Position numbers and translations under genes: made by a program. A DNA stretch of 64,000 bases, from positions 1 to 64,000 of the forward strand of contig JANCIK010000007.1 of assembly GCA_028532985.1 (NCBI GenBank), given 5' to 3'. The stretch comes from Stropharia rugosoannulata (Eukaryota; Basidiomycota; Agaricomycetes; Agaricales; Strophariaceae). Below the pieces are notes generated by a model. It had not been told where the DNA came from, ran no database searches, and worked only from the letters and a program-made list of their open reading frames with translations. This document shows positions 1-40,318 of this stretch, piece after piece. Every line of letters begins with the position of its first letter. The first letter of the stretch is position 1.

Positions 1-1
1 C

Positions 2-1990: not shown

Positions 1991-2009
1991 ATCACGAAAA
2001 ACACTTTTG
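1991..2009 (+). repeat. Left terminal inverted repeat of the KDZ element
   Basis: Starts ATCACGAAAAACACTTTTG. It matches the reverse complement of the right end (ATCAGGAAAATGACTTTTG) at 16 of 19 positions, directly inside the GAAC duplication. Confidence 0.8.
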
Positions 2010-2194
2010 ATCTAAGGACACTTTAGGACAGTTTATTTATATCATCAGTTGATGGGATCATTAACTACTTTAGGATGTCATAGGTTGCCCTGTGTATCTC
2101 TGAAATACCCTGGATTGCTCTGAACCTCTAGACACATACATTATATAGATATACATAACTGGGGTGATTATAAACATGTGTACAGGAGTTATAA

Positions 2195-5100
2195 CTAGTA
2201 TATAGTCTGGTATGCATAGTGACTAAGCCAGTTATTGATAAAAAATGTGTCGCACTTATCCAAGATATTATCGTACTGCCAGGAATTTGAAACCAGGTCT
2301 CCTTGGTGATCTTTAAAGACTGGAAATAGCATGCAACCTTGTCTAATTCTTGAAAGTGGTATGATATCACCTTGTACCCTTCCATAACTGTCAGTGGATT
2401 TGGATATTCTGTACATTCCATGAGTTTGATCTGGTGCTGGTGCTGTACGTGTATACCATTCAATATAAGCTAATGGCTCTTTTGGCCATATACTGGGTGC
2501 TTGTGTTTGAAAACCAGGACCATGAATATGAGACGGCAGAGTGAAAATGACTTTGATTCTTCCGACCCGTGTTCCTGCATATGTATTGGTCAATAGATAT
2601 ACTTAACTAGCTTTCCAACATTCTACATACCTTCCATTCCTGTTGCCTCTGCAGATTCCTTATCAAGAACAATTACAGTATCAAAGCGTCCATGGGGAAG
2701 AGATTGTGAAGTAGGTATAGCTCTGATTATGTCATTATTGTCTTCATCATCGTCTTGGATTGACAATGGATGAAAGCGGAACATGTTGTAGGTATTGACA
2801 TAGTTAATAGGAAGTGGTGCAAAGCCCAGTTGCTGATTTGGCAAAGAGGGGTTTAGAAAGCTGTTTAGATAGCGCTTGAAGTGTAATTCAAAGAATGGAG
2901 CTTTGTGTAAGGTTTCAATAAGAGATATAGGCCTGTTTGCGTAATTAGGATATTTGGCAATTGAGATCTGCCTCTTTGGCAGTGTATCTGACTGTGGTAT
3001 AGTGGGGGGAATAGGAATTCTTGAACGTAAAGTAGCCTCAAAGATAGTAGCCTTCTCCTGACGGCTTAACCAATTGATCATTTGCGGGAATTCGTCTCTT
3101 TGATTTGTTGCCCTCCAGCCACGTTTAGCAAAATCAATATGAAGACGTTCAAACATCTCAGTGTTGTAATTGTCAGTTGTGCCAAACATCTCTATAGAAT
3201 CGATATAATGGAGAAGAGAATGAAGTTTTGGGAGGTCCAGGTCAGACCGGCATTGCAGCTGGATAAAGATGTTTTTGTATTTATGAAACTCAGCAAGCGA
3301 CTGCTTAAGATAATCCAGAGTCTCTGTACTATGAGTTGGGTATTGAGCAAGATATATAAAGTCCAAGAGGCCCTTGACTGCCTTGATGCATGCTGACGGC
3401 AAGATGTCGACAAGACAGCCAAGAAGGATCTTAGCCATGTTCTTACGCTCACTGCCAGATATCTGCGACAAGGCTGAGATTCCATTCTTGAAGCGCTTGA
3501 GGCCATATCCCAGAGGTAAGGCACGTATACGCTGATCCAACTCTTTTGTTCCTACACAGCTTTGACACCAGGAAACAAGGTGCTTGAATATGCCTTGGTA
3601 CAGCTGGTGCAGGACATCAGGAGTGATAGACGTATGAATGTCAGTGAGAGGAAACCCTTCCCAGAAAGGTGTGAAAGTACCGCCAGCCACGTCATGCGCC
3701 ATACATTCCTTGTGAAATGCATTTAGACCTCCGCCTGATGCTTCTTTGGCGTCCCGTATAACACCTTCAGTCCATGTTCTTGTACGCTTCTCAGAGGGTG
3801 CTGGACTGTTGAGATTATCAGCTGAGCAACGGCACTTGGGACAGGTACCATATTTTGAGCAAGTAACTAAACACTGCTCTGGGTAGTCCGCCACGTAGCA
3901 GGCAAGAATAGGGTGGACGCGACGGATGTCACCATTACTGCTCTGCATTTCAACACCATTGATACCAGCCTGCCGAAGAGAGTCGAGAACAATGCGCATG
4001 GAGGTGTGGAAGAGTCGTTGGCCCCGTGAACGTAGCTCAAGGTTGGTCATGCCAGACCTATTGAGCTTGTCGACAGAAAGGTATGCTATAAGTATAGCAG
4101 CATGTCTTGATGGACACCGACGTATCCCTTTTGGCAGGTTTCCTATTGTCAAGTAGACAGGATATGCACTTTTACCGCCAGAGAACTGAGTTAGCTGAGT
4201 TTTGTCTGTGGCGATAATTACTGGAGCTACAGTTGAGCCTTCTGGTAGCTTGCTCTATATAATTATAAGTATCTAGTAGCTCTGATGTATATAGCTTTGA
4301 GACGTACCTGTACTGCATGCCACCACTTTCCTGTCCACATCTCAGAAAATATACGGGATGATTTGCTATTGTCGGAGTAGACTTTCTCAGGTGCATAAAC
4401 AAGATGCTCAGAGTTGGAAGGGCTAGACCACAGACTCTGGATGGCCTTGATGGGGTCGCGGAAGCGTACCGTGAATTTCTGGTCTGGGAGGTCATGGAAG
4501 CGTATGTTCTTTGTTATCCATTCTCCTCCGCGTTCCGGCATAGCGTCAATCTTCTGGTGCAAAGCCCTTGTATTGTGAAAAGATAGACCTAGTTTCTCCA
4601 CCACCTGTGGTATATTAGCCATCTAGTATCTATGAAGGTGAAATGAGACGTACCAGGAATTTCCAAGAACCGGTCAAATGCCTTATGTCCAGGTGCATTT
4701 TTAACTGCCCATTGAGCTATGTTCCAGTCAGTTTCAGATGAGAAGGGATGATAGGGATTGGTAGCAGCTGTATCATCACTCATGGGACAGTCGCCGTCGC
4801 TATCAACATGCTGTGTAAGAATCTTGCCTGCTGTAGGATGCTTTACTCTATAGCGGGTATCATCCTCGTCGTCTAGTACAATGTGTTTGTTTGACCGCTG
4901 TGTAGCTGCTGTTGTTGGACCAGGACCAGGTTGTGGTAGAAGGATGAATTCATCTCTGTCTACATCTTGATCTGGGTCTATGTTGCTATCGCCATCATCA
5001 TCGTCAATAAATGGGGGTGGCCATTCAATATTCACATCCTCAAAGTCTGGATCAGTATCCATATTGTTCTCTGAGAAAAGGAAAGACGCCAATGGTTGTT

Positions 5101-5308
5101 GAGCAACAGAGGGAGAGTCTGGTGATGCCTGGACCCGTACAAGATCGGCATTCTTCCCTTTACGGTACCACTTGCATGAGCGCGCCATCGATAGATGAGA
5201 ATTGAGTCCTTTGCTTGTGGTAAAGGTTTTTGAGCAAGCAGGGCATTGTGGGATGGCATCTTGAGCAAGCTGAAAGTTAAGTCCATTATTCAGTTTTAAC
5301 TGGGGCAT
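2195..5308 (-). CDS. KDZ transposase (four predicted exons, about 985 aa)
   Basis: A cut-and-paste transposase of the KDZ (Kyakuja-Dileera-Zisupton) superfamily with an RNase H-like catalytic fold. Predicted exons on the minus strand are 5308-4654, about 4610-4308, 4254-2631 and 2574-2195. The start ATG at 5308 precedes a C2HC zinc finger (CPACSKTF, then H and C), as expected at the N-terminus. Exon 2 carries a TGKWW block and exon 3 an ATDKTQLTQF block with the first likely catalytic Asp. A later SITPDVLHQLYQG block and an NYNTEMFERLHIDFAKRGW block supply the second Asp and the Glu. The last exon ends with a family-like FFINNWLSHYAYQ. Introns 2 and 3 splice in frame; the first junction does not restore the conserved VVEKLGLSF frame with canonical sites, so this copy may be slightly damaged. 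The gene is transcribed toward the left end, with a long palindrome upstream. Confidence 0.9.
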
Positions 5309-5678
5309 TATGAAGAGTTGAAATGGCAAATTAAATTGGCAGGGCAGTAGAACAGGGAAGGGGTAAGCAAGCAAGCAGCGTACAATAAAGTTATCAAAAC
5401 CCCCCCATATGCTATGTCCTAGCTATAAATATGTTTTCCTATATTCTTCTTTCCCCTGGAAAGCGACGGCATCCTGGGCATGAGATTCAAGTAGTGAATA
5501 TAACAATCTAAAGAAATTATTAATAAAGTGCATAATTAAAGTCAGATAGAAAAAAGCATACCTTATTTCTTTATCCAAAGTTTCAGTCGTAAACATACTA
5601 GAGAGCAGTGGAAGCAGCAATTGTAGCATGGTGTGTAGAAGGCATGCAGCTGCTGCACTGTCGATCGTGATGTTCATG

Positions 5679-5779
5679 TGACAGTCATGTGACACTGTTT
5701 ACCTCAGATTGTGAGAAAAGTGGTTCAAAGTGAACCACTTTTCTCACAATCTGAGGTAAACAGTGTCACATGACTGTCA
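5679..5779. repeat. Perfect 49-bp inverted repeat with 3-nt loop
   Basis: The arms 5679-5727 and 5731-5779 are exact reverse complements around the loop AAG. The tip reads GGTTCA-AAG-TGAACC. It lies 371 bp upstream of the transposase start. It is related to, but not identical with, the palindrome at 15021-15067. It could form a cruciform in DNA or a hairpin in RNA. Confidence 0.95.
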
Positions 5780-5865
5780 TGCTTAGATGCGCCATCCTCA
5801 GACAAAAAGATAATTAGAAACCGGCCACAATTATATTAAAAAGTAAGATATGTAGGTTGCACTAT

Positions 5866-6316
5866 TTAAGGTATTGAGAGCATAGCATCTTCGCATCGAA
5901 GTGGGCGGCGGGGTACAACAACTGTGGCTTCTTGGACGATTCCTGATTTCTGATTGCTCATGGTTGGCTGTTGTTTTTTTAACCGCAAAACCTCCGCTTT
6001 AAGGAGGACAATTTCAGCTTGCAAATCTCGAACCAGTTGCTCTTGGACAACAAGAAGATTCTAAAGACAAAAGAGAGAAAATTAACATGAATAATAGACT
6101 TAGACTATACCCACGTACATATATTCTTTCATCCAAGCTAATGCCATTGTACTTGATTAGGGGGGAAAGTGTCGACGCAGCGGTAGCACTGAAAATAGTA
6201 GAAATAAGGGCTGGTGACGTGCTAGTAGCTGGGCTATTAGCAAAATCAACCAGTGTAGTAGCAGCAGACAGTGGGGGGTTTTCTTCATTGCTGGAGGTCT
6301 GGTTTGAGGGAGACAT
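5866..6316 (-). CDS. Small coiled-coil protein, two exons, 130 aa
   Basis: The exons 6316-6119 and 6060-5866 are joined by a canonical GTACGT...TTTAG intron in phase 0, giving 66 plus 64 residues. The first half is Ser/Thr/Ala-rich and probably disordered. The second half begins with a leucine-rich amphipathic stretch (NLLVVQEQLVRDLQAEIVLL, followed by KAEVLRLKK), a convincing short coiled coil, so dimerisation is likely. I do not recognise the family. It lies between the 101-bp palindrome and a membrane-protein pseudogene, on the same strand as the transposase, so it may be an element-encoded accessory factor. The exact in-frame splice and closed frame support a real gene; the function is unknown. 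Confidence 0.6.
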
Positions 6317-6485
6317 AATGAGTCAAGGTATAGTGTCGTATGAGTTTAAGAAAGCTCCATAGTCCAACTTAATATAGAAATACTAAGTCATAAATTTACG
6401 TGTACAACTGCATGCCGCTCATCCCAATTCTCTACTACCACGTCGCTCCTACCTCTTCACACTCTTTCTTTGTACACACTTCCTC

Positions 6486-7604
6486 ATGATTAATGTTGAC
6501 ATTGAAGACAAAAAAATCCTCTGTAAGTCTCACTAAATTATATATTTCCTGGATCTTGCTAAATTGTCATCGCAATAGTTCAAGGAGGTTGGGCGTTACT
6601 AGGCCTAGCTCTTTTCACCAGTATTGCTCGTCTATGCCATCGCATGCACCTCTGCAAGCTAGGCTATGATGATCTCTTGTCATTATTGGCATTGATCAGC
6701 ACTACAGCATTGCTCATTAGCTCTGTTTTGAGTACGACAAATCACAATGTTTCTATGGCTAGTCCTGGTTTACGATGGCTTTCTCTTCTGACCTCAGCAT
6801 CTACACTCTGGTACGTTAATAAACTGGTGTATCTTCTTATATTTACTTACTTCAAACCGTTACTCAAAGGTTAACACGTCTAGCTATGTCACTCACTCTT
6901 ACACGTCTCTTATGTCCTGGGAGCATGTACAACCTTTCAACTCTAGCATCAAAGACGTTCGCAGTATTCTTTGTTGTGATTGTTGTCCAGGAAGCCCTTT
7001 TCTGTCAAACTAATATTCCATGGTCTACTGGACTGCTTAATCTTCTTTGTACGTCACTGAGCTAATTATTTTTCTCTCTAACTAATACCCACTGCTACAG
7101 TCAATTTAACTGCCGATTTGTGGCTTCTTCTTGCGCCCTTATACATGCTACTTCAGATTCAACATTGCTTATGGAAAGGGCATTTTCACCTTCTTTCTGG
7201 AGCATTTGCATGTCACATATTCACCATGACTGCAAGTATTGTCCATGACGTATACATTGTAAAAGCGCCCCGTCCTGGACCATAGCCTTCTTAGGAATTA
7301 TTCAAGTAAGAAGTACTTGTTGAATGTCAATACATTGCTAACAATAGTATTTTTTTGCCATTAGATTGGTGTCACCGTCATTATTTCAAATGTACTTATT
7401 CTGGCAACTGCAACATACCGACTATTTCGCTATGTCAGACAAAGGCATCTTGTCCAGGCCCCTGCCCAGTTTCATCATTCGTCTATGCATTGGAATAACA
7501 GTTACCTGAGCCATATATCAATGTTTGAGCTTCAGTTTCAGCTTGGCGAGTCAGTAGATACTGGACCTATTTTCTTTAATACAGTGGCTGCATGCTCTAC
7601 TTGA
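6486..7604 (+). pseudogene. Multi-pass membrane protein, probably broken by a frameshift
   Basis: ATG at 6486 is followed by several short exons that splice in frame. They encode hydrophobic helices: a GWALLGLALF helix, an LLSLLALISTTALLISSV helix, a TFAVFFVVIVV helix and a DLWLLLAPLYMLL helix. The block from WLSLLTSASTLW across an intron to SLTLTRLLCPG resembles a family of basidiomycete seven-helix membrane proteins of unknown role. Near 7275 the frame reaches a stop, while one more base would continue it into a further helix (AFLGIIQ, intron, IGVTVIISNVLILAT). A one-base deletion is therefore likely. The terminal exon ends at 7604. It may be transposon cargo. Confidence is good that it is a membrane gene, low on function. 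Confidence 0.55.
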
Positions 7605-7791
7605 ATATCGTAAACACAATCTTTTTTGCATTCTTTAACTAGTAGACTCAAATATATTCATTAAAATAGTAATTACAAGTTACAAGAGTAGTAGTCAATT
7701 TAGAATTGAATATATGCACTGTGAATCATAGAGACTGAGGTTTCACAACACTGACTCTGACTGTGAGCACAATGGCTGAGTCTCTTCCAGG

Positions 7792-8210
7792 TCACTGCTG
7801 CCGTTTCCAGATGCCCAGCAAGTTCCCTGAGGAGAGCCGGAGGGACAACATGTGCGTGCTGCCGCCAAAAAGCGGCACATCGCCGGTATCTGCGGGCTTC
7901 ATGATGTCAACGACGATCAGGGCGCCGCCAGGCTTCAGGAAGAACGTGAGTTTCTTCGTGATGGCGTTGATGTCGGTGAAGTGGTGATAGGACAACGCAC
8001 ACTGGTATGCAGTTTATTATTTTAGTCTGAGATGATTTATGTGGATACTCACTGTAATCACGTCGAAGCGCAGCCCGTCGAGCTCGCCTTCTTCGCCCTT
8101 GAGATCTACGCAGACTGCACGCACCTCTTCAGCCGCAAGTCCTTGGTTGGACGCGGCCTCGTTAAATGCGTCGACCGGACCCTGGCTAATATCGACTCCG
8201 ACAAGTACCC
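7792..8210 (-). pseudogene. Fragment of a class I SAM-dependent methyltransferase
   Basis: Only the middle of the gene is present. The upstream part encodes the SAM-binding LVGVDIS motif, followed by an acidic loop and LDGLRFDVIT. After an intron (about 8050-7996) comes SYHHFTDINAITKKL and FLKPGGALIVVDIMKP, the usual post-motif and motif III region. The N-terminal glycine-rich motif I and the C-terminal third are missing. At its 5' edge (about 8210) it runs straight into an ornithine carbamoyltransferase exon on the same strand in a different frame, so the junction is chimeric and cannot make a functional protein. The retained intron argues for a DNA-level capture. Confidence 0.75.
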
Positions 8211-9147
8211 TTCAAATGCGCGCAGGCGCTCTGCCTTTTCTGCCTCCTGGCCCATTGAGATCCTGGGTTCTGGTTAGACAGAGTGGAGTGAGGAAAGACA
8301 AGGCTCATACCAAGTGTCGGTAACGACTACATCCGCATCCTTGACGGCCACTGCGGGGTCCGCAGTCCACTCAATCTGGTTTGCGATACCGAGCTGCTGA
8401 AGGTGGTCGATGATGGGTGCGGGGGAACGGTACTGCGGCGGGCTGGCGACACGAACGGTGTGGCCGAGGCGGGGGTATGTCACAAGCATGTCGTGCAGGA
8501 CGTTTGCGCAGTCACCGACGTACGCAATGGTGAGTGGGCCGAGGGCAGGGACGCCTTCTTCGCTTGCGCGCGGCGGTCGCATCTGTCGACCTTGCAAGCG
8601 GCTGCCATGTTTTCTTGATAGCTGCGTGCTCGTGCAGGGTGAGAAGGTCTGCGAGGACCTGGGTCGGATGTCAGCGAGGACAGTGCATTCAGCACGGGCA
8701 CGGGCGAATGAGCTGCGAGTTCCTGAGAACCAATCAGCAGGGTACATTGAGGAAAAGTGCAAGACGCACCTCGATCTCCGAGTGGTCTCCGACGCGGGCA
8801 AAGATACCTTGGCACATGCCACCAATGATGCGCGCCGAGTCGCGCATAGACTCGTTCACGCCGAGCTGGATGTCGTCGCGGCCGAGGAACATGGCCTGGC
8901 CGCCAAGCATAGATGCGCCCGTCTCTGCAGCAATACGTGTCTGGGTACTGCGCTTGGAGAAGAGGAGAGCGACGGTCTTGAGGAACAGCGACTGGGGCGG
9001 CAGGCGCATCTTCTTGCTCGACGTCGGTTGTTTGGGACCCAGCCATGGCTTGGAGAGTTGCTTGAGATTGTAGGCATGGACGACGACGCAGTTTATCTGT
9101 GCCGGGGTGAGATCTGCGAGGGTCATAAGGTGGCGAGGGCTTGCCAT
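8211..9147 (-). pseudogene. ARG3: Truncated ornithine carbamoyltransferase gene
   Basis: OTC makes citrulline from ornithine and carbamoyl phosphate in arginine synthesis. The fragment begins with [14 protein letters not shown] (with a possible start at 9147) and contains the carbamoyl-phosphate-binding region altered from the usual STRT ([10 protein letters not shown]), then [20 protein letters not shown]. Later exons carry [26 protein letters not shown] and, after an intron, ISMGQEAEKAERLRAFEG. The C-terminal ornithine-binding HCLP region is absent: the gene stops at about 8211 and methyltransferase sequence follows. An extra base near 8672 shifts the frame. Introns are kept. About 75 bp of 5' flank (9148-9222) may belong to the same fragment before ALG2 sequence starts in the opposite direction. 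Confidence 0.85.
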
Positions 9148-9222
9148 GGTGGTGAGAGTTAAACGAGTCGAGCAAGAGTCAAGTCAATTCTCGACAGAGG
9201 GAAATTGTTCCCACGTGATCGT

Positions 9223-10720
9223 GCAAGCTCGGCCATTCAGTGGACCTGTATACCTCATACCATGATCCAGGATACTGTTTTGAAGTTAATACCTCTTAGC
9301 CGCTTAAGGCGATACTGACTGCCACCTTGCAGGCACTCTGAAAGTGCGCCATGTAGTGCCCCCCTTTCCTCGTTCACTAGCGGGCAAATTCCATATTCTG
9401 TTTGCTCATCTGCGTCAGCTGCACTTGACCCTTCACCTGCTGCTGTGGAATGCGCCTCAATACGATGTCTATTTTGTGGACCAGCTCTCGACTTGTGTTC
9501 CATTCCTTCGCCTCTTTGGCAACACGCGGGTCGTGTTCTACTGTCACTTCCCGGATAAACTACTTGCAAATGGCGCATTTGTAGAAGGAAATCTCGTCAA
9601 GAAGAATGTTGGACTATTAAAACACTTGTACCGATTGCCTATGGATTGGTTAGAGGAAGTCACGACGAGTAAGCAAACGACTTGAATGTCTCTGATAATG
9701 CTAACTTACGATCATCGTAGGGCAAGCGGATATCATCCTTGCGAACTCGAAATTCACAGCACGAATTTTCAAATCGTATTTTCCTCTATTAAACAGACGC
9801 CTTGTATTGTATACCCCGAATAAATATAGCCGCATACGAGGCTGAAGTCGACTTTACGGACCCAAACATTGCTGCAGTAACATCGTACGTTCACTTAATA
9901 ACTGCGACTAGAACCTTGATTAAATCTATCCAGACCGAAGCCTACCCTGCTCTCATTGAACCGGTTTGAGGGCAAGAAGAACGCCATGCTGGCTCTTCGC
10001 GCATTTGCAAAGCTGCAAGCAAGGTCCTCGGACCTGCGCCTAGTCCTCGCTGGTGAGCCGTAACCCCTATAAAAAAACTCTATCCTACCTTACACTACAT
10101 CACATTCAGGTGGATACGATCCCCGGCTAGAAGACAATGTTGGCACACTTGAGGAGCTAATCGCCAGCGCGCAATCGCTCTCTCTCTCCTACACCATCTC
10201 TTCACCATCTCCACTCCCACCGCAGCTCACACCGCTCACCACGCCCACCGCCAACCCCGCCGTTCTTTTCCTCCTCAACTTCACCACTGCCCAGCGCACT
10301 GCCCTCTTACGCGCACCCAATACACTTGCATTGCTCTACACGCCTGCGAATGAGCACTTCGGGATCGTACCCGTAGGGGCAATGGCCTGCGGCGTACCCG
10401 TTCTCGCTGCTGACTCTGGCGGCCCGACGGAGAGCATCGTCACAGTTTTACTTCAGTCTCGTACAAGCTGGCTTGCGCGTCCCGATGCAGAGGTGTGGTC
10501 GGATGTGCTGTTTGAAATAGTGCGACTAAGTCCTGGGGAACGCGCGGACATCGCACGGAACGCAAAAGCGCGGGCGAGAGAATTGTTTGGAATGGATGCA
10601 ATGGCTACGGGCTTGGACGAGGCGCTGCAGGCGGCAGTAGCAATGGGTCCAGTAGACGCATTTGGTTCAGGTAGAACCCTGACGATGCTGCATGCTCACT
10701 TGCCCATGCTCGCGTTGTAG
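9223..10720 (+). pseudogene. ALG2: 5'-truncated, frameshifted ALG2 mannosyltransferase gene
   Basis: ALG2 adds the second and third mannoses to the dolichol-linked N-glycan precursor at the ER. The fragment starts within the first domain at KLGHSVDLYTSYHDPGYCFE, without the N-terminal GGAERLV region. It continues with VVPPFPRSLAGKFH, FVDQLSTCVPFLRLF and RVVFYCHFPDKLLA. Later exons encode PTLLSLNRFEGKKNA and the nucleotide-sugar site NEHFGIVPVGAMACGVPV and ADSGGPTESIV. The frame is lost near 9816, where one base too many (or two too few) precedes the expected INIAAYEAEVDF segment. The first intron boundary near 9278 also lacks a clean in-frame donor. The gene is inactive but keeps at least four introns. 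Confidence 0.85.
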
Positions 10721-10805
10721 CCATATATATAACACTAAGTGAGTCCTTGCCCTGTGGTCTTCTAAAACTCAAAAGACAAACATTGACTGACTAACCTCTG
10801 ACCTA

Positions 10806-11997
10806 GGTCCCTCGCAAACGTGCTCAAAAAGACTGGGTTCACGAAGATTGAGAGTCAGGCACGCTCTGCGGTCCCATAGGTCCGTCCCTCACCCACTCCT
10901 AGCTCTCCGCTCATGCTCAGCCTCTCTCCCTCCCATTGACCACCCACTCATCTCCCTCTCACCGCCATCCATGCGCCCATGCCATCTGTGTGCCCACAGT
11001 CCGCTTCACCGACAAAAATACGGGGCTCGACTGCAACTTGAACGTGAACGAGCGGCTCGGGCTAATCAACTCGGACCTGATCAAGACATACTGCCTCCTC
11101 AACCCATTCCTCTGCCCGCTGCTCTTCATGATCCAAGAGTGGGCAAAGCAGCACGAACTCAACTCGCCCAGCACGCCGCGCGTCCCTGTGTCGTTCAGCA
11201 GCTATGCACTCGCGCTCATGAGCATCGGGTTCTTCCAGGTGCGCGTTGTTCTTTCTTTCCTCTTGTTCTTCTTTTACTGGTTGCTGATCATCTGTCTTCG
11301 CGTACGCAGAACCAAGGCATGCTGCCGAACCTTCAAGACAGGTACACGCCGCTCTCTTCTAAGGAAGAGATCAAGCAGCACTGTCTGGACGCAGAAGCCG
11401 CACCAGGGGTGGGACGTCCGCTTCCAGCGCGGCCCGCCCGCCTTCCCGGGCGCAGTCGAGGTCGACCGCTATGACATGCTCATCAAGTGGTTCCGGTCAG
11501 TCCTCCGCCACATATAAATGCTTATGCTTAGCAATCCCACCAGGTTCTGAGAGAACTTCTCGTACACTGAGCAGTGCATCGACGTCTGCCGGGGCGGTGT
11601 TGTTCCACGGGAGCCGGTCGTGCCCTCCGAGGACAGCAAGCAAAAGGGCTCTGTGCGTCCCTCCTTTGTTCATCCCTCGCTAGACTGACCTCTAACATCA
11701 ACACAGGAGCCGCCATCGCCCATCTGCATCATAGACCCGTTCATCGTGACCAAGGTGCGTGCCCTCCGCTCTCGTGCAGCAGGCCGCCATGCTGACCAAG
11801 CTACGTAAAATAAACACACCCTCCTTGTCCACGTAAATGCGCATGCCGTGCAAAACACGACGCGCACGATATCGAGCAAGGTGCTGCACAAGTTCGTGAG
11901 GCAGTGCAGGGTGGCCGCACACGAGATCGAAAAGATGGACGAGTTTGAGCGGGCGGCGCACTGGCCGATATACGACGAGGAGGTGGACAGGATGTAG
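10806..11997 (+). pseudogene. Fragment of a Cid1-like poly(A)/poly(U) polymerase
   Basis: The segment matches the central and PAP-associated domains of non-canonical nucleotidyltransferases that tail RNA 3' ends. After a short upstream piece (SLANVLKKTGFTKIESQ) comes RFTDKNTGLDCNLNVNERLG, LINSDLIKTYCLLNP, IQEWAKQHELNSP and SFSSYALALMSIGFFQ. Later exons encode GMLPNLQ, the PAP-associated region ending IIDPFIVTK, and a C-terminal helix closing at 11997. The N-terminal catalytic GS and first Asp pair are missing. One base is lacking at the exon end near 10880 (VPIV expected), and a TGA replaces a codon in FRF*ENFSYTEQ near 11548. It is adjacent to and co-oriented with the ALG2 fragment. Confidence 0.75.
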
Positions 11998-12217
11998 ACA
12001 GCCGCTGTTATCTAGAGCAGTACTAATTTGATATGATGAGCCCACGTTAGATTAAAAATATTTCATTCCGCGAGTAGTATGGGACAAAGTTGGGTGTGGG
12101 GAGATCCAAGTCTGGATTTGGATGGGTGGGCCCGGGGGTCTCGCATCCCGCGCTGCATTTATCACCATCACCACCATCGTCGCTGGCGGCATCCACCCCT
12201 CTCTCCCTACCACAACC

Positions 12218-12782
12218 ATGTTTGGAAAAATCGGTGCAAAGAGTGCGTACGCCGTCCATCACGACGCCCACGCCCCAGCTGACAGCGCATAGAGCCCAAG
12301 GACGGCAACGGCGTCATCTCGCGATTGGTGACCCCCATCCCCTCGCGCCTGACGACGCCCAAGCCCCCGCATGGTGCTGACCAGTTCCACTTGGGCATGC
12401 TCACCATCTGCATCTTCTCCGGTACGCCCCTCCCCCTGTCCCCCCGCCCGACCTGCTGCTCACCGTCTGTCCCGCCCAGGCCGCGGGCTCGCCCTGGGGC
12501 TGGGCGTGGCCGTCCCCGACGTCATCCTGCGGGCGCTCGAGGCAGCGCCCCAGCCCGCCCCGCGCCGCTCGACGAGCAACTGCGACAGTATGCAGGGCAC
12601 GCAGCGCAAGCGCTTCTGGTGGCTGCCTTACGTCGTGCTCGAATTCGACAAGAACGAGATCCTCATCGATGCAATGGCCGGCGATCTCAACAACCCCGTG
12701 TGGAACTACCGCACTGACTTGTGCGTACCTCTCTCTCCCCCCGCCGGGCTCGCGCCGCTGACTCACGCTGCGTATCCAGCTT
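12218..12782 (+). pseudogene. SCH9: N-terminal fragment (C2 domain) of a SCH9-like AGC kinase gene
   Basis: From the start codon (MFGKIG) through two introns the segment encodes FHLGMLTICIFSGRGLALGL and then FWWLPYVVLEFDKNEILIDA and PVWNYRTD. These match the distinctive C2 domain at the N-terminus of fungal SCH9/Akt-type nutrient-signalling kinases. Similarity stops after the next intron (about 12782). The kinase domain is absent, and unrelated sequence follows. The piece keeps its own 5' flank, which suggests the captured DNA included the promoter region. Confidence 0.7.
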
Positions 12783-15020
12783 GTATCCAGCGACGTCTTT
12801 CATTCCATAACATTTTGCTTAAAGCGTTCTGGCTCAAAGTGTTCTCGCAGATGAGCTGGCAGTCCATCGGTTCCAGTTGAGCTCAGCAAAATGCACTCAT
12901 GAGAACTTCTATTAAATGTACGTTCTTAATCATACTATCGGTCTTCCTCTGAATGCAATGGCATGGTATGTTGCGGTTACTAACTCCTATCAAAATCTAG
13001 ATGTTGGTATAGAAAAGTGGTTTATGTCGAGGCGAAGTTGTGGTCAAGTCCTTGTACACATGGGGTGCCAATCGGTGCGTTCATATCTTGAGCCTTACAA
13101 ACATTGTATTTACCAGTAATGCAGTCCTTGGAATCAGTGATGAGAATGACAAAACATATCCAGAATTTATCTGTACGCCTATCTCCCATTCATATCCAGC
13201 AAGTTCACATGTCCAGATTGCATACAGGTCCGCGTATATGCGCATGAGCTATTTCTGGCAGCCCGCTCCTGAATTCTTGCCCTCCAGGTACACTGGTGGG
13301 CCTGCTCCAGATGAGGCACGAGGACCATAAAATATCGGCGCTGATAAATCAAGATCCCTGCACGGAAGAACAAGTGAGTACATACCTTTTACCATTGTTT
13401 TAGGCAGCATGCTCACTGCCTGAGTTGTCCAGTCGCAGCAGACATGTACTGTTCAGTACACTTCTGCTCGTCATCGTTCGCGTCCTCAGCCGCCTGTACA
13501 GTTACAGGAAACGATGAGCACAGACAAAGAAAAGGTAAGTACATACCTTATCATGTTGTTCTCGGTTGCTTTCTCACTTTGCAGCTTGTCCAGAAAGGGT
13601 CGCAATTCTGGTTAACAAGTAGATCGTGATAGGTACGTGGACAGTTTACTATCATGTACCTATCTGCTACTGACATTGCCCTAGCAAGGTAATTCTCTGA
13701 ACAACTTCAGGGTCAGTAATGACGAAGACAGAGGGCAACACGGTAACCTGGCACCTTCTGGGTCAGTAGGGTGCACCAACCTGGAATCAGCATTTCACGA
13801 GTGCATATGCTGCTGTCGTCGTTGGATACAGCCCGGTGAGTCTAGATTTGTTTGTGTTCATGTCAGGTGCTCGTGCCTTGACTCGAGTCAGGAATGGCGC
13901 TGTCGAAGCGCAGATTCGGTGCCGCCGTCTCGTGGTACAAACCAGTAAGTCCTGGCTTGTAATTTAAAAACTGTCCACTGACGGTGATGCTCATTGTTTT
14001 CTCACTTCCCTAGGCTGTTACGGACCCGTGCAGTCACATGAAACAATGCTGGGTCTGCTCGTCGTCATCTCTCGTGACTCTGGCCTGGCAGAAGTGCTAG
14101 AAACAACGAGACATGGAAGACGTGGAACAAGGTAAGTACGTACCTCTTAGTGTTATTTTAAATGCCCTGGTTAACGTACATGGTAGCCAAGACAAACGAA
14201 CATGTCTAGCAATGCCAGGTGTGCCCTTGCTCGTGCTCGTGCTTGTGTTTACTGCTGACGTCGTTATTCCAGGCCAAACACACCTGCCGCCTCGCAGATA
14301 AATTTGCGATTCATATTGCTATTGTCGTTGTTTCGTGCTCAAGTATGAGCATCACACGGCGGGCGTTGTGCTGATTGCCCAAGGTATGTAATTTCTGCCC
14401 ATTGTTAATGTTCCTGGACCGTGCTGACGTTGTTCTCCTCTCATGGGTTGCTAGTGAAGGAAATTACATGGATCTGCGATTGTCCCGTGGCCGCCGTTGT
14501 CTGCGAGGATATCAGTCACATACGAACCTTGCACTGTAATAGCTCAGGAAGGGCGTCGTTCTCAGTGTTTCCGCTTGCCGCAGGGGCAGGAACTTCAAAC
14601 CAAAGACAAGAAGAACAGGACGCTCAAATAATGTGCATATGCTCTCAGAAGCCTCGGAGCAGCGCACTCCCGAGTGGCTCGCAATCTGCCACGCCTTCCA
14701 CCCACTGCTGACGATTGCACGCACGCAACCGCTGTACCCTGACGAGCCCGTGGCGCATTCCCACCATGTCAATGCTCTGTCATCCATCCTCCCATCCCCC
14801 TGCTCCCTCTACTCCCATGCTTTTCAATATTCTTGAACCATCCTAGCGGCAACAAGAAGGCTTGAGTGGACACAACCAACACAAGATGGAGGAAGACGAC
14901 AAGCCTCGAGTGAACACAAGGAGAGCAAGCCCACCAGCGGCCATAGATCCCCAAACTGGCAGGGTGATATGTCACGCGTTGTAGGGCTTTGTGGTGCGTC
15001 GCGACGCGCATTGTGTACTC
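12783..15020. other. Cargo region with no recognisable gene
   Basis: No convincing long coding frame is present. Three near-identical donor-like motifs of the form GTRAGTACRTACCT occur at about 13374, 13535 and 14132, each followed by intron-like sequence and an AG. The intervening 80-150-nt segments look exon-sized but have no shared open frame. The stretch may be decayed host gene pieces or a spliced noncoding transcript. A possible short coding piece at 14633-14836 is not recognised. Confidence 0.4.
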
Positions 15021-15067
15021 GGAAGGTGGGAAAAGCCGTTCAGCTTGAACGGCTTTTCCCACCTTCC
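15021..15067. repeat. Perfect 22-bp inverted repeat with 3-nt loop
   Basis: The arms 15021-15042 and 15046-15067 are exact reverse complements around GCT. The tip CGTTCA-GCT-TGAACG and the arm resemble the inner arm of the 5679-5779 palindrome (16 of 22 aligned positions). It lies 332 bp upstream of the TET/JBP start. Confidence 0.95.
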
Positions 15068-15398
15068 AAGGACTATCTCGCTTACTTGGCCTAACCCCAA
15101 AGTCCTCTTCAAGCCATTACGTCCTCCATGTCTAACCTTTGTGTATTTAGTAGTAGTAATACTGTATTTATGAATAATTACTCTGGTACATGCATTTGCA
15201 AGCCCGAAAAAACAAGTAAGATATACGTAGTTTGGCCTCATGACGGGTTCGGAATGACTAAGCTGACGGATCACAGTACTCATCGGTTTGCTGTTGGTCC
15301 TTATCACTTATGCACTTTCACCCTCCCTGCAGCTATCCTTCCAAACACTGTCAGCTCTCTGCTTTTTTCTTCATTCATTGCTCCAGCAACCTACATAT

Positions 15399-18300
15399 AT
15401 GGCCAGAACTCTGACCCTTTCACCAAGAGAAATTAACCTAGCTATTACTGCTTTGCTGGCAACCAATCTCTGTGCTGACGGCTCGGAATCTGCATGGGAG
15501 AATATCCAACTAGTTTCTAAGCTTCAGTCAGCAATTTCTGACAGTTCTGGCTGCTTTTCAGAGCCCTCTATTCTTGTCAATATTGCTGATAGCAGTAGCT
15601 ATCAGCATGCTGTACGTATTTTAACTTTGATTGACATCTCAATTACACTTAATTACGCTATTGTAGGTCTCATACTTGGTTTCTCATCAAAGTGAAGGCC
15701 ATTCTTCCTTAATTCCACAGGTAAGAGCAATTACTATTCATATAATTAATTGAATCTAACCTGTATATTGTAGGAAAGGGATCAAATGGTAGACGCAAAT
15801 GATCCTGGTGCTAGAGGCCAAGGCAGACCTAGAGGTGGAGGAGGTGGTGGTACTGGAGGAGGAGGAGGAGGAGAAGGACAAGGCAGAGGCAGAGGCAGAG
15901 GTGGAGGAGGTGGTGGTGGTGGTGGAGGAGGAGGAGGAGGACAAGGCAGAGGTGGGGGAAGAAGAAGAGGAGGAGGAGGAGGAGGAGGAGGAGGAGGAGG
16001 AGGAGGAGGAGGAGGAGGAGGAGGAGGAGGAGGAGGAGGAGGAGGAGGTGGTGGTGGTGGTGGTGGTGGTGGTGGTGGAGGTGGTGGAGGAGGAGGAGGA
16101 GGACCACCTGCTGTCCGGATCTGCATTCGAGGAGGAACAAGAGCCCAGCGAGCAGCCGTACGTGCCCAAGTCAGGGCAACTGTTCTCGATGCCTGGCTGA
16201 ATGGACACGCTAATCCTGTACCACCACAAGTGAACATTAATCTGGCGAACTTGGATCAAGCAGGACTTTATCAAATCGATCCAGAAGACGGCGAAGACGA
16301 TGCAGTCGACGCTGCTGCTGTGGTTGGTGCAGAGGTCCAGGATGAGGCAGCTCTCGTATACCCCAATGCATCTAGCAACGCCATTGCTGAACGTCAGGCA
16401 CTGGCTACCACTGGCACCGTCTTTTTGTCTGTACTTGCTGCTCAGGCTTTATCTTGTGTTACGACAGAAGCCGGTTCCAGCTCTCAAGCACCTCACCGAC
16501 TACTGGAGCATATTATGGACCTGGGAATGTCTTCTTCATCTCCTGCTGTTATCCAGTCACCTTCTCTTTCCCTTTCGTCAATGGATCTCATGGAAGCCAT
16601 CAAACAGCAGTCCATGATATGTTCACGTATAGATGAAGCTACTACCATGGTTCATCTGTCGTATTTTCTGAACTGCATGCAGTTTGCATGTCTGGTTAAT
16701 AGGTGAGTCTACTATACTCTTTTTTTCATTGCTAATGGCTTTTATTAGATATTTGAATGAGCCTAGCTCATTAACGCAGACCAACCTGTTCACGCAAATG
16801 GAGAAGAATGGCGGAGAAGCACTTAGCTCTCTCAGGCGCTATCTGGCTGACGGAACTGCATGTTGCTCTTTAGCTGGAGCTGGTGAGTGCTACTTCAATT
16901 AATTGGTGGACTATATTAATATTTCTGTCTCAGCTTCATTTTATATTCTGATCTTAATGGCAGCTGCTGCTGTTCGCCCCAGGATTAGAGAGTGGAGGGG
17001 TGAGATTTGCTTGCGTATCTGCCAAGCACTGAGGTTTCCTTCAGATGGTACGTTCCTCTGTATTGCTTTATATATATTAACTTACTCAAATCTGACGTCT
17101 CAGATTCGAACTCCAATATTATTCGAAACAGCATTATCCCTGCTATAGCATATATGCGTAAGACTTATCCGCTGAGATTAAACATGTTGTTTCCCGTGGC
17201 CTTCCTGAATTCGTTCCTTAAGTCAAGTGACGTCGATTGTACTGATCTCATTGTTACTGATACAATTATGGATCATTTATACATCGTCAAGTGAGTCTTA
17301 TGCCATATCAGGGTTTAGGCTACTGCTGACTATTGCTACTTAGTGGGTTTACATCTGGGCGTGACTGGGAAGCATGGGAGTTATGTCTCTCACCAGTGTC
17401 TGGCATTCGCTACTCTTTGGACTCTCTGACGGATACGGTCATCTCCTCTGCCACGTATGGACTTCCTATCACATCTGGACTGCCTGTGCTGCCCATGACT
17501 CCTCATTCCCTTCGCTACCTACAGAGAGAGGCATACCCTAGTCCTGCTCCTAGTCAACCGTCATTTACTAGGTCATCTTCCCCAAGGTTGTCGTCTCCAG
17601 TGCCAATCCCTAGTGAGGCTCCTCCACACCCTTCTCATCCAGATCTAGTCTTGGTAAAGACAAACTTCAATCCAACTCTTGACTATAACACCAAAATGCG
17701 CTTCAAAAGTGGAGAGCATAGCAAGGACAGGCGGATCAAGTACACAGAGCAGCAGCGGAAGAAAGCAAAGTTGGCAATAGAATGTAGTGATTTAACTGAC
17801 TTCACAACCAAAGTAAGTACATATTTACTCTTTCTACAGTTATGTTATTCTAACCCTCATTAGATTCAGACCCAGCTACAGAGTGGCAGAAGGGCAAACG
17901 ACAGCAAGTATATCAGACTCTCTAGTACTTCCTTGAATGAGTAAGTTTATATTCACTATTTTAGATAATTACTGATAATTCTCATAGGAAAGTTCTACGC
18001 ATCAATGACAAGTCCGACAATCTCCTGGTCTTGGTCATTCCGACAATGCCAGAAGTAATGCGATTAGCATTACTTCCTCAGATTGCTGCTATCTTTCCGG
18101 CTCTTAGAAACATGGACTCTGCCGTAGAAGGCGACAGCCACTCCTTCACGTCTCTACACTTTAGCTATTACAACAGATATTCGAACAGAGTACGTGATCA
18201 TTTGCTAATTTCTACTTATATGCTGATTTTTATCTAGGGTGACGGAACTCCTGCCTCCGCCCATCCTTCTACTTTAACCAAGGCTGGTCAAAAGAAAATC

Positions 18301-18891
18301 AACACATGTCAAAATATTCCTAGGCAGAGCAATGAGCTCAAGGACCATTCCAGTGAGTATCAAGCCATGCAAGAGGTGTTTAAACCAGTTTTTGAATGGT
18401 TGACGTGCCAGGTAAGTAATTTTAAAGTCACTTCTTTATTGGTTTCTAATGGGCCATACTAGCTTCATACGCTTCTTCCTGAGCAGTTTACCACCCTCAG
18501 CCAGTATGTTGACATTCTTCCGTGCAGTGACATATCCCCCGTATACCCCTTTGGCGGCTTTGTTGTCAATCTCAATGTGACGACTAGGATTCATCGTGAC
18601 CATGGCGACCAAGATATATGTCTTGTTTTGCCCATCTCTGATGGCGAAGGAGGTGAGCTCTGTCTGTTTGAGCCAGGGATAGTTCTGCACCTCTGTACTG
18701 GAGACGCCGTTATATTCCCCTCTGCCCGTATTAGCCACTTTAACATGCACTTCAAAGGTAGGAGAGCATCTGTTGTACTTCATTCTGATGCACAGGGCCT
18801 TGCATGGGTCAAGGATAGAAATGGTTGGGATCATAATATTTTTATGAGAACTTATACGTCGAATAGTAGTGATCCAGATATTGGGATGTAG
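15399..18891 (+). CDS. TET/JBP-family 2OG-Fe(II) dioxygenase in a KDZ element (11 exons, about 983-993 aa)
   Basis: TET/JBP enzymes oxidise methylated bases in DNA using Fe(II), 2-oxoglutarate and oxygen. Predicted exons are 15399-15611, 15667-15720, 15774-16702, 16749-16882, 16934 or 16964-17047, 17104-17290, 17344-17812, 17864-17940, 17988-18189, 18238-18411 and 18463-18891. All phases agree. The C-terminal catalytic core has PFGGFVVNLNV, then the iron ligands in TRIHRDHGD (HxD), a GGELCLFEPG turn, and the distal His in ARISHFNMHFKG, followed by Arg-Arg for 2-oxoglutarate. The N-terminal half is unlike known enzymes and holds a long Gly tract. A middle segment is Pro/Ser-rich and then basic. 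The start could also be 15288 in the same frame. The gene points toward the right end of the transposon and looks intact. Activity on 5-methylcytosine is inferred from the family. Confidence 0.88.
15833..16105 (+). repeat. GGN microsatellite coding a glycine tract inside the TET/JBP gene
   Basis: About 270 bp of GGA/GGT triplets, preceded by GGCAGA units that give RGRGRG. In frame it encodes nearly pure glycine with a few Arg and Gln at its start. Because the repeat lacks stops, other frames are also open here (poly-Glu, and poly-Pro or poly-Ser on the other strand); those are artefacts. The tract is probably length-variable. Confidence 0.9.
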
Positions 18892-18988
18892 AATATTACA
18901 TAATCTACTTTAATTATATTTGCACTTAGTCTGAAGCTTTATTGCGCTCTGCCACGACACTTGTCTCATCTTTCTCCTAACTCCAAAC

Positions 18989-20640
18989 ATGGCTATTACT
19001 ACTCGTAAGCAAGCTGCTGCTTCTGCTACCCCCTCTGCCTCCTCTTCTTCCAAGTCATCCGGCAGTTCAAAGAGAAAGGGCAGCACATCTGCCGGTGGCA
19101 ACAATTCCAAACGTCAGAAGAATGCACCCGAGCCACCGTGTGATCTCGCCTTAATGAAGAAGGTCCTTGAATATCAAAAGCAATTATCAAAAGAAGGCCG
19201 TAAGAAATCTAAAGAGAAGCCGGCAGCTGTCGAAGAACCCAGTATGCCCTAATACTAATATACTGCTTATGGCTAATATATATTGTAACATTTATAGCAA
19301 GTCAGCAACGTGCTGCTGCATTGCTACAGACAGAGAATGAGAACGGCGACAATGCAGATGACCAATCCCTTGACCCTCCCGACGAGAACCTGAACCCCCT
19401 CCACCTCAGTGACGACGAAGCCGCTTTTGCAGATAGTCTCGAGGACTCAATCCCAAACAAGACCAATAACAACTCTGACGACAACAATGATTCCGACAAT
19501 GAGAAGGGTATGCAGAACAGAGAGAAGCAGGCCGACAATTCAGATTCCGACAATAACTTGGAAGACGACGATGAAGAGAAAGATGCATCCGCTACTGCTA
19601 TGGAAGATAATGGAGTAACGTCGTCCTTTTTGTTAATCATTTTCATTAAACTAACATATACTCTATTATACAGTTTGAGTTTGATTATACACCATCTAAG
19701 AAGAGTACCAGAAGGGCTGCATCTTTACACCAAGAGTCCACCCCAGGAGGTAAAGTCAAGCGTACCGACTTCCCTGCTGATATTGCCATCTTAGCAGATA
19801 GCGGCAAGAATCTCATCCGCTCTCACGTTTGCTTCGGCAACTGGGTTCTCGACGCCGATCCCGGCAAGGCTGACTGGATCTGGAAAATCATTAATGAGGC
19901 CCCCAATCACGTCGCCCTCTCCGCTCAGCCTGCCGCACGGAAGGGTCTGAAGACCATATCAAGCTTCTCTCATCAAGTTATGAGGTCAAACCTCCTCACC
20001 TATGTACGTTCTTTCTAGAATGTAATCACTATTCTAATCTTGTTGTAGGTTGCATATGGAAAAGGGGCCCTCTTCAACACCATCATCGCCAAAGCTCGAC
20101 AGCGTGTCGTCGGCCACTACAATTTGAGTGGCGATTCCGTCAGTAAGAACGTTGAGTGGCTCCTGGACGCATCTCACTTTATTTACGGTGATCTTAACAT
20201 CAAGGTATTTCATACCTTCCAACTACAATATTATCTGACCTATTTTTTATACAGGAGAAAACTTTCAACAATGTGAAACCCTTTGGAAACCCTCTCATTA
20301 AAGAGCTTATCCAGGCTATCTGGTTCAATAACGCGAAGGCTAGGGCCGACATCGGAACCGCTACACGTATGGCAAAGGAGGGTATAATTCCTTTATCCAC
20401 CGTGTTTCTTATCGTCGCTGCAGTAAGCTTTCTTCACTTCTTTGGTATATCTTACTAATACAAGAGCAGATTGAACATAGTATTGGCGAATACAAGACTG
20501 GTATTGAATGTCAAACTCATTTCAAGGAGCTTCAAATACGTACCCGGTATAGTTTCTGTATATTATTTATAACCCTTTTTTTAATCCTTCCTTTACTTTC
20601 AGCTACCGGTATCATCAACGAACATGGACAGGTTTGGTGA
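18989..20640 (+). CDS. Acidic/basic low-complexity protein with a DUF6532-like helical domain, 443 aa
   Basis: Seven predicted exons (18989-19241, 19298-19614, 19674-20003, 20049-20204, 20255-20422, 20470-20539, 20603-20640) join with matching phases into a closed frame. The N-terminus is Ser/Lys-rich with nuclear-signal-like patches (SSKRKGSTS, SKRQKN). An Asp/Asn/Glu-rich stretch follows, then a globular part containing FNNVKPFGNPLIKELIQAIW, IIPLSTVFLIVAA and GEYKTGIECQTHFKEL. This resembles a basidiomycete domain called DUF6532, though I am not certain. Just after the predicted stop, another frame reads LVKKSPKWTDAYEASFFKS, which looks coding, so the true C-terminus may have been lost by a frameshift or an unrecognised intron. 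It follows the TET/JBP gene on the same strand by about 100 bp and is likely part of the transposon. Confidence 0.6.
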
Positions 20641-21429
20641 AGAAATCACCAAAATGGACTGATGCATATGAAGCATCTTTCTTCAAGTCTATTGCGTTTG
20701 TAGTGTTATTTTCTCTACTTCATATACTAATTATATCTCTATTAGTAAATCTTGCAACATTGGTGCTCTTCTGGATAGTGATATGGGTGAGAATGTGGAG
20801 GACATCAGTGGTGTTGTCGGTGCTGAATTGGATATGCTTGTTGATAATGGCCTGGCGCTTTTTTAATTTCTTGCTATACTATTTATAATTGAATAATTAT
20901 ATTTCCTGATACTACATAGCCTGGGGCCTGGGAAATATTAGTGCATACATGAAGCCTTTCTCTAAAGCACCTACCTAGCTTAAAATATACATTCCAATTG
21001 TCCTAGGGTGGAATTAATCATATCTTAGTTTACCCAAGGTTTATATCTAGCAAATAATTTCTCTCCCAAGGCAGTGACAATAGACTTCTGCATGTTCCTG
21101 AGGCAATATTTAAAGGATGTAAGTTTGTGTATATGCTCCTTAACACTTTTTTCAGTCACCTTAGACACATCATAGAAGCATTTTTTTGCTTCATAAGTAC
21201 CCTAAGACTTGCTTACACCTCCCTTTGGAATGCTTTATCAGTAATACAAGGTTGATTTGGTGCATCCTGTACTGCCTTGACATGCTTTGGATTGCCCTGA
21301 GAAAGTTGTACTTGCTTGTTTGTGGAGGGACCTTGCCCTGAGTGCACCTAAGGGCCCTGGCTGCTTTGCATGCCCTGGCTGTCTTAGGATCTCTAAGGCA
21401 GTGCCAGGGAGATACAAAGCCCCTGGGGA
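20641..21429. other. Right subterminal region of the KDZ element
   Basis: AT-rich noncoding sequence after a possible coding tail up to about 20690. From 21270 to 21400 the motif GCCCTG recurs four times (in TTGCCCTGAG, TTGCCCTGAG, GGGCCCTGGC and ATGCCCTGGC). Similar GCCCTG and ACCCTG motifs lie near 2090-2115 at the left end. They may be subterminal transposase-binding repeats. Confidence 0.45.
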
Positions 21430-21448
21430 CAAAAGTCATTTTCCTGAT
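21430..21448 (-). repeat. Right terminal inverted repeat of the KDZ element
   Basis: Reads CAAAAGTCATTTTCCTGAT to the edge. Its reverse complement matches the left end at 16 of 19 positions. Confidence 0.8.
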
Positions 21449-21452
21449 GAAC
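21449..21452. repeat. Target-site duplication GAAC, right copy
   Basis: Second copy of the GAAC duplication. It begins the resumed integrase frame (gaa cct cat gaa gct cca). Confidence 0.85.
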
Positions 21453-22126
21453 CTCATGAAGCTCCATCGTCTCTGGAGACTGTGAATGAGTTCAAGGAGC
21501 GGATGGCTAGTACGTTGGAAGAAGCCAAGTCAGCGCTGGCTAAGGCCAAAGATGACATGGCTCGCTTCTACAACCGGCAACGTGACCCTCTCCCGGTGTA
21601 CAAACCAGGTGACAAGGTCTACCTGGATGCGTCAGACATCTGTACCTCCCGTCCCTCCAAGAAGTTGTCCCACTGTCTCCTGGGCCCGTATACGGTCGAG
21701 GCTGCTGTTGGATCTCATGCCTACCGTCTCAAACTCCCAGTTTCTCTCAAGTGTCTCCACCCTGTCTTCCCTGTCGTCAAGCTCACGCCCTGTCTCCCTG
21801 ACCCTATTCCGGGCCGCATTGCAGCGCCTCCTCCGGAACCTGAGCTAGTGGATAACGAGCTGGAGTACGAGGTTGAGGCCATCCTCAACAGCCGCATCCA
21901 TCGAAACAGGCTTCAGTTCCTCGTCAAATGGAAGGGGTATGGGTATGAGGAGAACTCCTGGGAGCATGCGGAAGACGTCTTCTCACCTCAGTTGGTGGCC
22001 AAGTTCTACCGGGAACATCCTGATGCTCCGCGGGTTATTGGCTCCCTGGCAATTGAACCTGGACGGTATAGAACAGTCAATGGTGGCGAGTGGATCACCT
22101 TACCACGCCGGGACGCCATGGCTTGA
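21449..22126 (+). pseudogene. Chromovirus integrase C-terminus with GPY/F motif and chromodomain
   Basis: This is the rest of the pol frame broken at 1990. It reads SSLETVNEFKERMASTLEEA, then the integrase tail PLPVYKPGDKVYLDAS, LSHCLLGPYTVEA (GPY motif) and HPVFPVVKLTP. A chromodomain follows (ELEYEVEAIL, LQFLVKWKGYGYEENSWEH), a module that directs integration to marked chromatin. The C-terminus closes at 22126, right at the polypurine tract. The segment itself is open, so most damage to the element lies in the 5' half plus the insertion. Confidence 0.95.
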
Positions 22127-39569: not shown

Positions 39570-39578
39570 CTAAACCCA

Positions 39579-40318
39579 CGATGCTGGAGCAATGTACTCA
39601 GTGCAGACAATATTGCGAAGCAAGATCACAAGTTTTGACTGTTCTGCTTCGAGTACTTGGTGCACTCGCAGCTGGGGCTCCACGCGCCCCAATTTCACGA
39701 AGCTAGAGCAGTGTACCCAGTGCAGACAATATTGCGAAGCAAGATCACAAGTTTTGAGTGTTCTGCTTCGAGTACTTGGTGCACTCGCAGCTGGGGCTCC
39801 ACGTGCCCCAATTTCACGATGCTGGAGCAATGTACTCAGTGCAGACAATATTGCGAAGCAAGTTCACAAGTTTTGAGTGTTCTGCTTCGAGTACTTGGTG
39901 CAAACACAGCTGGGGCGCGTGGAGCCCCAGTTTCACAATGCTGGAGCAGTGTACTCAGTGCAGACAATATTGCGAAGCAAGTTCACAAGTTTTGAGTGTT
40001 CTGCTTCGAGTACTTGGTGCACACACAGCTGGGGCGCGTGGAGCCCTAGTTTCACGATGCTGGAGCAGTGTACTCAGTGCAGACAATATTGCGAAGCAAG
40101 TTCACAAGTTTTGAGTGTTCTGCTTCGAGTACTTGGTGCACACACAGCTGGGGCTCCACACGCCCCAATTTCACGAAGCTGGAGCAATGTACTCAGTGCA
40201 GACAATATTGCGAAGCAAGTTCACAAGTTTTGAGTGTTCTGCTTCGAGTACTTGGTGCACTCGCAGCTGGGGCGCATGGAGCCCCATTTTCACGATGCTG
40301 GAGCAGTGTACTCAGTGC
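39579..40318 (+). repeat. 119-bp tandem array, about 6.2 copies
   Basis: The anchor GCAGACAATATTGCGAAGC occurs at 39603, 39722, 39841, 39960, 40079 and 40198, exactly 119 bp apart. Copies differ by a few bases. Each has a 17-bp segment bounded by GGGG and CCCC that is in one orientation in copies 1, 2 and 5 and inverted in copies 3, 4 and 6. Because 119 is not a multiple of three, the frames running through the array are artefacts. Confidence 0.95.

Follow-up and report, generated by a model that had tools for sequence, protein, structure and literature searches.

A Gene-Capturing PlavakaB-Type Transposon With a TET-Type Dioxygenase Gene in Stropharia rugosoannulata

Results

A Transposon With Host-Gene Cargo at the Start of Contig C7

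The window considered here is the first 64 kb (64,000 nt) of contig C7 (JANCIK010000007.1) of Stropharia rugosoannulata, and it was compared with the genome of 48 Mb in 20 contigs. At 1990–21449 it contains a DNA transposon of 19,460 bp with the ends CATCA..TGATG, which interrupts a chromovirus and comprises a Plavaka transposase gene, a TET/JBP-type dioxygenase gene and, between them, a chimera of host-gene fragments. The element is a gene-capturing form of a known transposon kind, and the capture, not the nesting, is of main interest. The initial annotation, a KDZ transposon nested in a chromovirus integrase, had missed that the central 7 kb, the most informative part, derives mostly from the host.

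Most of the 7763–14756 region has matches at 73–96% identity, extending through introns, in six unlinked regions distributed over five other contigs. The leftmost cargo consists of two pieces (7763–8205, minus strand, 86% and 96% identity) of a methyltransferase-like gene from C4:3343897–3344910, where the match to Methyltransf_25 (E-value 9.4e-05) is below the cut-off. It is followed by a fragment of an ornithine carbamoyltransferase (OTC) gene from C12:1378041–1379074 (8205–9226, minus strand, 96%), which retains OTCace_N, both OTC domains being present in the donor, and by a glycosyltransferase gene fragment, presumably ALG2-like, from C4:3341370–3342850 (9226–10691, plus strand, 96%, Glycos_transf_1). 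Further to the right lie a poly(A)-polymerase-like fragment with the start of the next gene, from C11:2032570–2034671 (10691–12780, plus strand, 93%, MTPAP-like_central, that is the palm), two pieces from C6:508472–510023 (12832–13245, plus strand, 91% and 73%), and segments from C11:299946–300231 (13988–14266, plus strand, 88%) and C2:841517–841605 (14668–14756, minus strand, 90%). The captured parts include neither the protein kinase that adjoins the C11 source nor the ankyrin repeats by which the two C6 pieces are separated in their locus. At four of the six inspected joins (7840, 8205, 9226 and 13053) the overlap is 0–1 bp. Between cargo and donor, the OTC exon has 8 synonymous and 5 other differences and the glycosyltransferase exon, 14 and 16, numbers that are too small for a claim of selection on the cargo and are confounded by constraint on the donor.

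Other Copies and a Bracketed Capture Step

Six bounded copies with differing flanks were compared, the one in the window and those on C12, C13, C9, C6 and C2, the latter spanning 19.5, 22.2, 26.7, 33.8 and 61 kb, respectively, by their end positions. The C12 copy has the same cargo as the window element in different flanks, with its own CA target duplication; the four alignments between the two, which overlap in part, contain 28 mismatches and 16 gap openings in total. As it holds the same chimera, nearly unchanged, the element moved after the capture.

The interior of the C13 copy (L060) contains a different chimera with three donor pieces, from C1:1236855–1240542 (TPR and Peptidase_C1_2 domains), C13:1687077–1691122, and C7:518535–520307 (Peptidase_C14, caspase). 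The C1-derived piece has an internal deletion of 579 bp. The caspase-gene piece, 1,769 bp long, lies where both the C9 copy and the donor at C13:1687971 are continuous; zero target bases were lost or duplicated, and the overlaps are 1 and 0 bp. This piece is one capture step bracketed by an empty site. The C9 copy, whose transposase is split in two pieces, in turn holds approximately 507 bp that are absent from C13 at L060:8834 (judged by coordinates only), so that the cargo has seemingly also been trimmed.

A short copy on C10 shares the backbone up to window base 7749 and from that left border continues with other fragments, which match C13:1005894–1006012 (89%) and C6:3394643–3395066 (83%). 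The interiors compared, those of the C7, C12, C13, C9, and C10 copies, hence hold three different chimeras, one common to C7 and C12, one to C13 and C9, and one in C10.

Ends and Target Duplication

The left terminal inverted repeat, CATCACGAAAAACACTTTTGATC (1990–2012, plus strand), has the same start in all six bounded copies, and the right one (21427–21449, minus strand, ending with TGATG on the plus strand) is the right end shared by them. Each copy starts with CATCACG and ends with CCTGATG, a C preceding ATCAC in 6/6; the outer C and G therefore belong to the element, and the earlier coordinates, 1991–21448, were one base too short at each end. The earlier identity count for the inverted ends, 16 of 19, was borne out by the end comparison, and a search of this genome for ends lying elsewhere yielded copies that share the proposed ones, shifted by one base. 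With the boundaries so corrected, the description as a bounded, large DNA transposon is upheld.

Comparison of the flanks gives a duplication of AA in the window (1988–1989 and 21450–21451), CA in C12, AC in C13, TA in C6, TA in C2, and GA in C9; it extends to 3 bp in none of the six copies, the chance of a 2-bp flank match being 1 in 16 per copy. The initial annotation had proposed a 4-bp duplication, GAAC. This string is indeed present on both sides, because AA in this target happens to be preceded by G and followed by C, but as a duplication it is ruled out by the five other bounded copies, and the length is exactly 2 bp in 6/6.

The 21-bp right end has 83 exact copies in the genome, and approximately 206 bp are common to many places at 90%, which means that the same right end serves many other elements. 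At C13:2112923–2177767 twelve exact 21-bp right ends occur in series, mostly spaced by approximately 5.55 kb, and constitute a tandem array of related elements. At locus L059, which has the same right end, no match to the left end of the window element was found.

The Interrupted Chromovirus

The target is the pol of a chromovirus (Ty3/Gypsy-type), recognized by copies elsewhere. Its left part (1–1989, plus strand) is truncated by the contig start and contains the integrase, broken after 1989 (Integrase_H2C2, E-value 4.8e-20; rve, 6.8e-07, below the cut-off), and the right part of the interrupted frame occupies 21450–22126 (plus strand). As initially proposed, removal of the insert restores the integrase frame: the short flanks, when joined, stay in frame (GFE-PHEAP).

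The left flank has 36 matches in the genome, including the window, and the right one, 38; for the junction comparison we used 35 of the 36 left and 35 of the 38 right matches, since one left and three right ones stop short of the junction. Outside the window, 32 of 34 chromovirus places run from the left to the right flank, the two matches overlapping by exactly 2 bp as a single AA predicts, so the empty site is present as continuous copies; in the remaining two (C8:3.14 Mb and C3:30.8 kb) the alignments fall short by 4 and 15 bases, but the flanks are spaced as they would be in an uninterrupted copy. No other chromovirus copy with the insert at this site was found in the genome. As other copies pass uninterrupted through the site, the chromovirus is older than the insertion and was already in place when the transposon arrived, and the earlier claim of mobility after the chromovirus had inserted holds.

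Transposase and Classification

The transposase gene (2195–5308, minus strand) encodes 979 aa in four exons (5308–4654, 4588–4308, 4254–2631, and 2574–2195) according to a stop-free hand gene model, and the protein matches the whole Plavaka profile, PF18759 (1–325), with E-value 9.7e-113. The motif order is D..D..C450xxC453..H657xxxH661..E, the catalytic D and E being assigned by motif position only. Among the best 120 of 749 protein matches, which were the ones examined, the best match spanning most of the protein has 55% identity. We take the named relatives of the transposase (among these 120) and of the TET-type protein (10 matches) to be mushroom-forming fungi. At 5308, exactly at the transposase start codon, similarity to several copies (L003, L005, and L025) ends, as if the coding and upstream parts were swapped as modules.

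Plavaka is classified within the CACTA/EnSpm clade and is distinct from KDZ (Kyakuja, Dileera, Zisupton), and PlavakaB is characterized by CATCA..TGATG ends and a 2- or 3-bp duplication (Kojima, 2025, PMC12730594). All six bounded copies have such ends and such a duplication. KDZ elements resemble the window element in that they often carry TET/JBP genes in basidiomycetes, but have a different transposase and duplications of 7 or 8 bp (PMC12730594); the original KDZ label is thus ruled out by the Plavaka domain and the 2-bp duplications.

TET-Type Dioxygenase and Other Genes

The TET/JBP-type gene (15399–18891, plus strand) has an open hand model of eleven exons encoding 993 aa, with every intron GT-AG. 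The Tet_JBP match of the protein (E-value 7.5e-05) is below the Pfam cut-off, and a search with a profile of this protein together with eight homologues found TET2 (E-value 0.01) with the HRD motif aligned. For the homologue P0002 an AlphaFold model was considered (mean predicted local distance difference test, pLDDT, 72.6; predicted template modeling score, pTM, 0.56), and its fold search of PDB gave CcTET as the best hit (E-value 2.4e-10, 13% identity), followed by NgTET, TET2, and CMD1; the window protein is accordingly predicted to have the TET fold. No useful match of the last TET exon alone was found among PDB sequences.

The predicted iron-binding residues H177, D179, and H225 are invariant in all nine aligned sequences (the window protein and eight of its ten matches), and the iron motif is HRD, that is HxD, in 9/9, not the HxE of the PE type that is reported for TET-carrying Plavaka (Kojima, 2025, PMC12730594). 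Counted from the first His, position +5 is Gly or Ser and position +11 is Asp in the AG type (Gly331 and Asp337 in CcTET); by an ungapped count, the window protein would have Asp and Val at these positions. Close to the protein start, a GGA repeat (15855–16103) yields a long glycine run.

Two more genes belong to the element. The one at 18989–20865 (plus strand) encodes a DUF6532 protein (E-value 6.1e-25 with a hand-joined gene model); its six leading exons join in frame, and the borders of its last two exons are tentative. The multi-exon gene at 6485–7605 (plus strand, approximate exon borders) was delineated by open frames, belongs to the backbone that the C10 copy shares, and encodes a membrane-like protein, for which the profile search gave no domain family above its cut-off. 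By its gene content the element appears to be autonomous.

Palindromes Flanking the Cargo

Two palindromes flank the cargo: palindrome A (5679–5779, core 5711–5747), with 49-bp arms that are 100% complementary and a 3-bp loop, and palindrome B (15015–15073, core 15026–15062), with 28-bp arms that are 93% complementary. The 37-bp core is found genome-wide in 12 places as the GTGGG type and in 8 as the GTGAG type, all 20 within the six bounded elements or in partial relatives at C10:244–271 kb and C13:2.68–2.71 Mb, and reversed-pattern controls gave 0 matches; the palindromes are family-specific. The two partial relatives closely resemble each other; each contains three palindromes and matches the transposase gene in its first stretch only.

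In 8 of the 20 cores, compared letter by letter, the sequence varies and complementarity is kept over 16–17 pairs, which could reflect selection or hairpin-guided conversion. In 6/6 measured cases palindrome A lies upstream of the transposase gene, 421–520 bp from its start; in the C6 copy none was found by the exact pattern. The C10 copy retains one arm of each palindrome, with the endpoint at or beside the loop, which fits breakage at the palindrome center. Still, we make no claim of a causal role of the palindromes in capture, because the C13 insertion point is at least 2.7 kb from any of them.

CpG Depletion

In three of the four cargo segments tested, CpGs of the donor are altered in the cargo in 10/101, 12/107, and 45/203 cases, compared to 2/87, 2/95, and 10/167 in the reverse direction. 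The observed to expected CpG ratio is 0.54 in the transposase gene, 0.52 in the membrane-like protein gene and 0.46 in the TET-type gene, with 0.94 in the cargo and 0.98–1.07 in host stretches. This pattern suggests past methylation of the element, which would give it a motive to carry a TET protein.

Discussion

We consider it reasonably probable that the element is a cut-and-paste transposon of the PlavakaB type, judged autonomous from its gene content, with a TET-type gene and a spacer that accumulates host fragments by end joining. At a double-strand break in the central spacer, end joining would ligate loose host DNA between the broken ends, so that a fragment is gained, and later deletions would trim the captured fragments. 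Inserts may persist there because a spacer between two divergent gene blocks would be dispensable, and the TET protein might counter CpG methylation of the element.

A number of observations weigh against this reading. The proposed mechanism is based on one empty-site case. The OTC piece from C12 sits exactly between two C4 pieces and replaces approximately 1 kb of C4, which is not accounted for by simple insertion. The join at 10691 shows an overlap of 1 bp accompanied by a mismatch or a 2-bp filler, and in that near 12.8 kb there are a stretch without a match and small tandem duplications; for the stretches at approximately 13.25–13.99, 14.27–14.67, and 14.76–15.0 kb no donor match was found in the genome. 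As for methylation, the fourth cargo segment shows no bias (6 vs. 7, all substitutions counted), and the DUF6532 gene, with a CpG ratio of 0.80, is not strongly CpG-poor.

Serial donors with minimal overlap, and the OTC piece between two C4-derived ones, are also what template switching would leave if, in faulty gap repair after excision, one-sided synthesis jumped to unlinked templates and back. Internal deletions are common in gap repair, and the 579 bp missing from the C1 piece agree with this. At the C13 insert, where no base was lost, such synthesis would have had to return by coincidence to exactly the same base, and we regard this route as possible but unlikely. We are more doubtful still of a built-in capture site, at which palindromes would favor spacer breaks, host fragments would be repeatedly ligated and reshuffled, and the TET protein would aid escape from silencing; if true, an autonomous DNA transposon would possess a device for capturing genes.

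Dispensable DNA takes up inserts with no special device, so that ordinary insertions or segmental duplications might have hit a passive old transposon by chance. This is very unlikely given that the C7/C12, C13/C9, and C10 copies hold different chimeras in their central spacers, and the window cargo moved together with the element, which partly refutes passivity as far as movement is concerned. A hybrid of two adjacent elements with opposite end deletions, enclosing the intervening DNA, is a route described for Pack-CACTA in a review (PMC13317346), and the kinship of Plavaka and CACTA (PMC12730594) speaks for it. It would yield one flanking block and not pieces of six unlinked regions, and leaves the insert inside older cargo unexplained; we disfavor it as extremely unlikely. 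The window is at a contig end, where an assembly artifact might be suspected, but the same chimera recurs at C12 in other flanks with its own CA duplication, which makes the probability of an artifact negligible.

PlavakaB elements, among them TET carriers from Agaricus bisporus and Gymnopus confluens (Kojima, 2025, PMC12730594), share with the window element the transposase, the CATCA..TGATG ends, the 2-bp duplication, and a TET-type gene; in contrast to the published TET-carrying Plavaka, the window element has a host-gene chimera, and HxD instead of HxE. Pack-TYPE and Pack-CACTA elements (PMC8903248, PMC13317346) are likewise DNA transposons with host-gene fragments between the ends, but are described as plant elements that are non-autonomous, whereas the window element is fungal with its own transposase gene. 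Host coding DNA lies between its ends, yet since the transposase gene model is open, we call it Pack-like and not a Pack-TYPE member. The gene-capturing Helitrons of Pleurotus ostreatus (PMC4289320) are also basidiomycete transposons with captured gene fragments, but are rolling-circle ones, while the window element ends in inverted repeats, lies between target duplications, and encodes a Plavaka transposase.

No report of gene capture by Plavaka was found in the literature searched for both terms; in their accessible text, PMC12730594 contains no gene capture in Plavaka-type elements, and PMC6431247 does not contain Plavaka. Here Plavaka, a group of mushroom transposons, is seen to shuffle genes, and the TET type that accompanies it is absent from those given for Plavaka in the accessible part of PMC12730594. 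According to a 2026 review (PMC13317346), an undiscovered mechanism may exist by which DNA transposons gain unlinked gene fragments. One capture is bracketed here to the base by the source locus, an empty and a filled copy, which makes the models distinguishable.

Additional Observations

At the start of contig C8 (C8:1499–2486) there is a chromovirus nearly identical to that at the C7 start, without the insertion, and the two starts are perhaps shared chromosome ends. Outside the element, a 119-bp unit is repeated in tandem at 39577–40318 of the window, in 6.2 copies.

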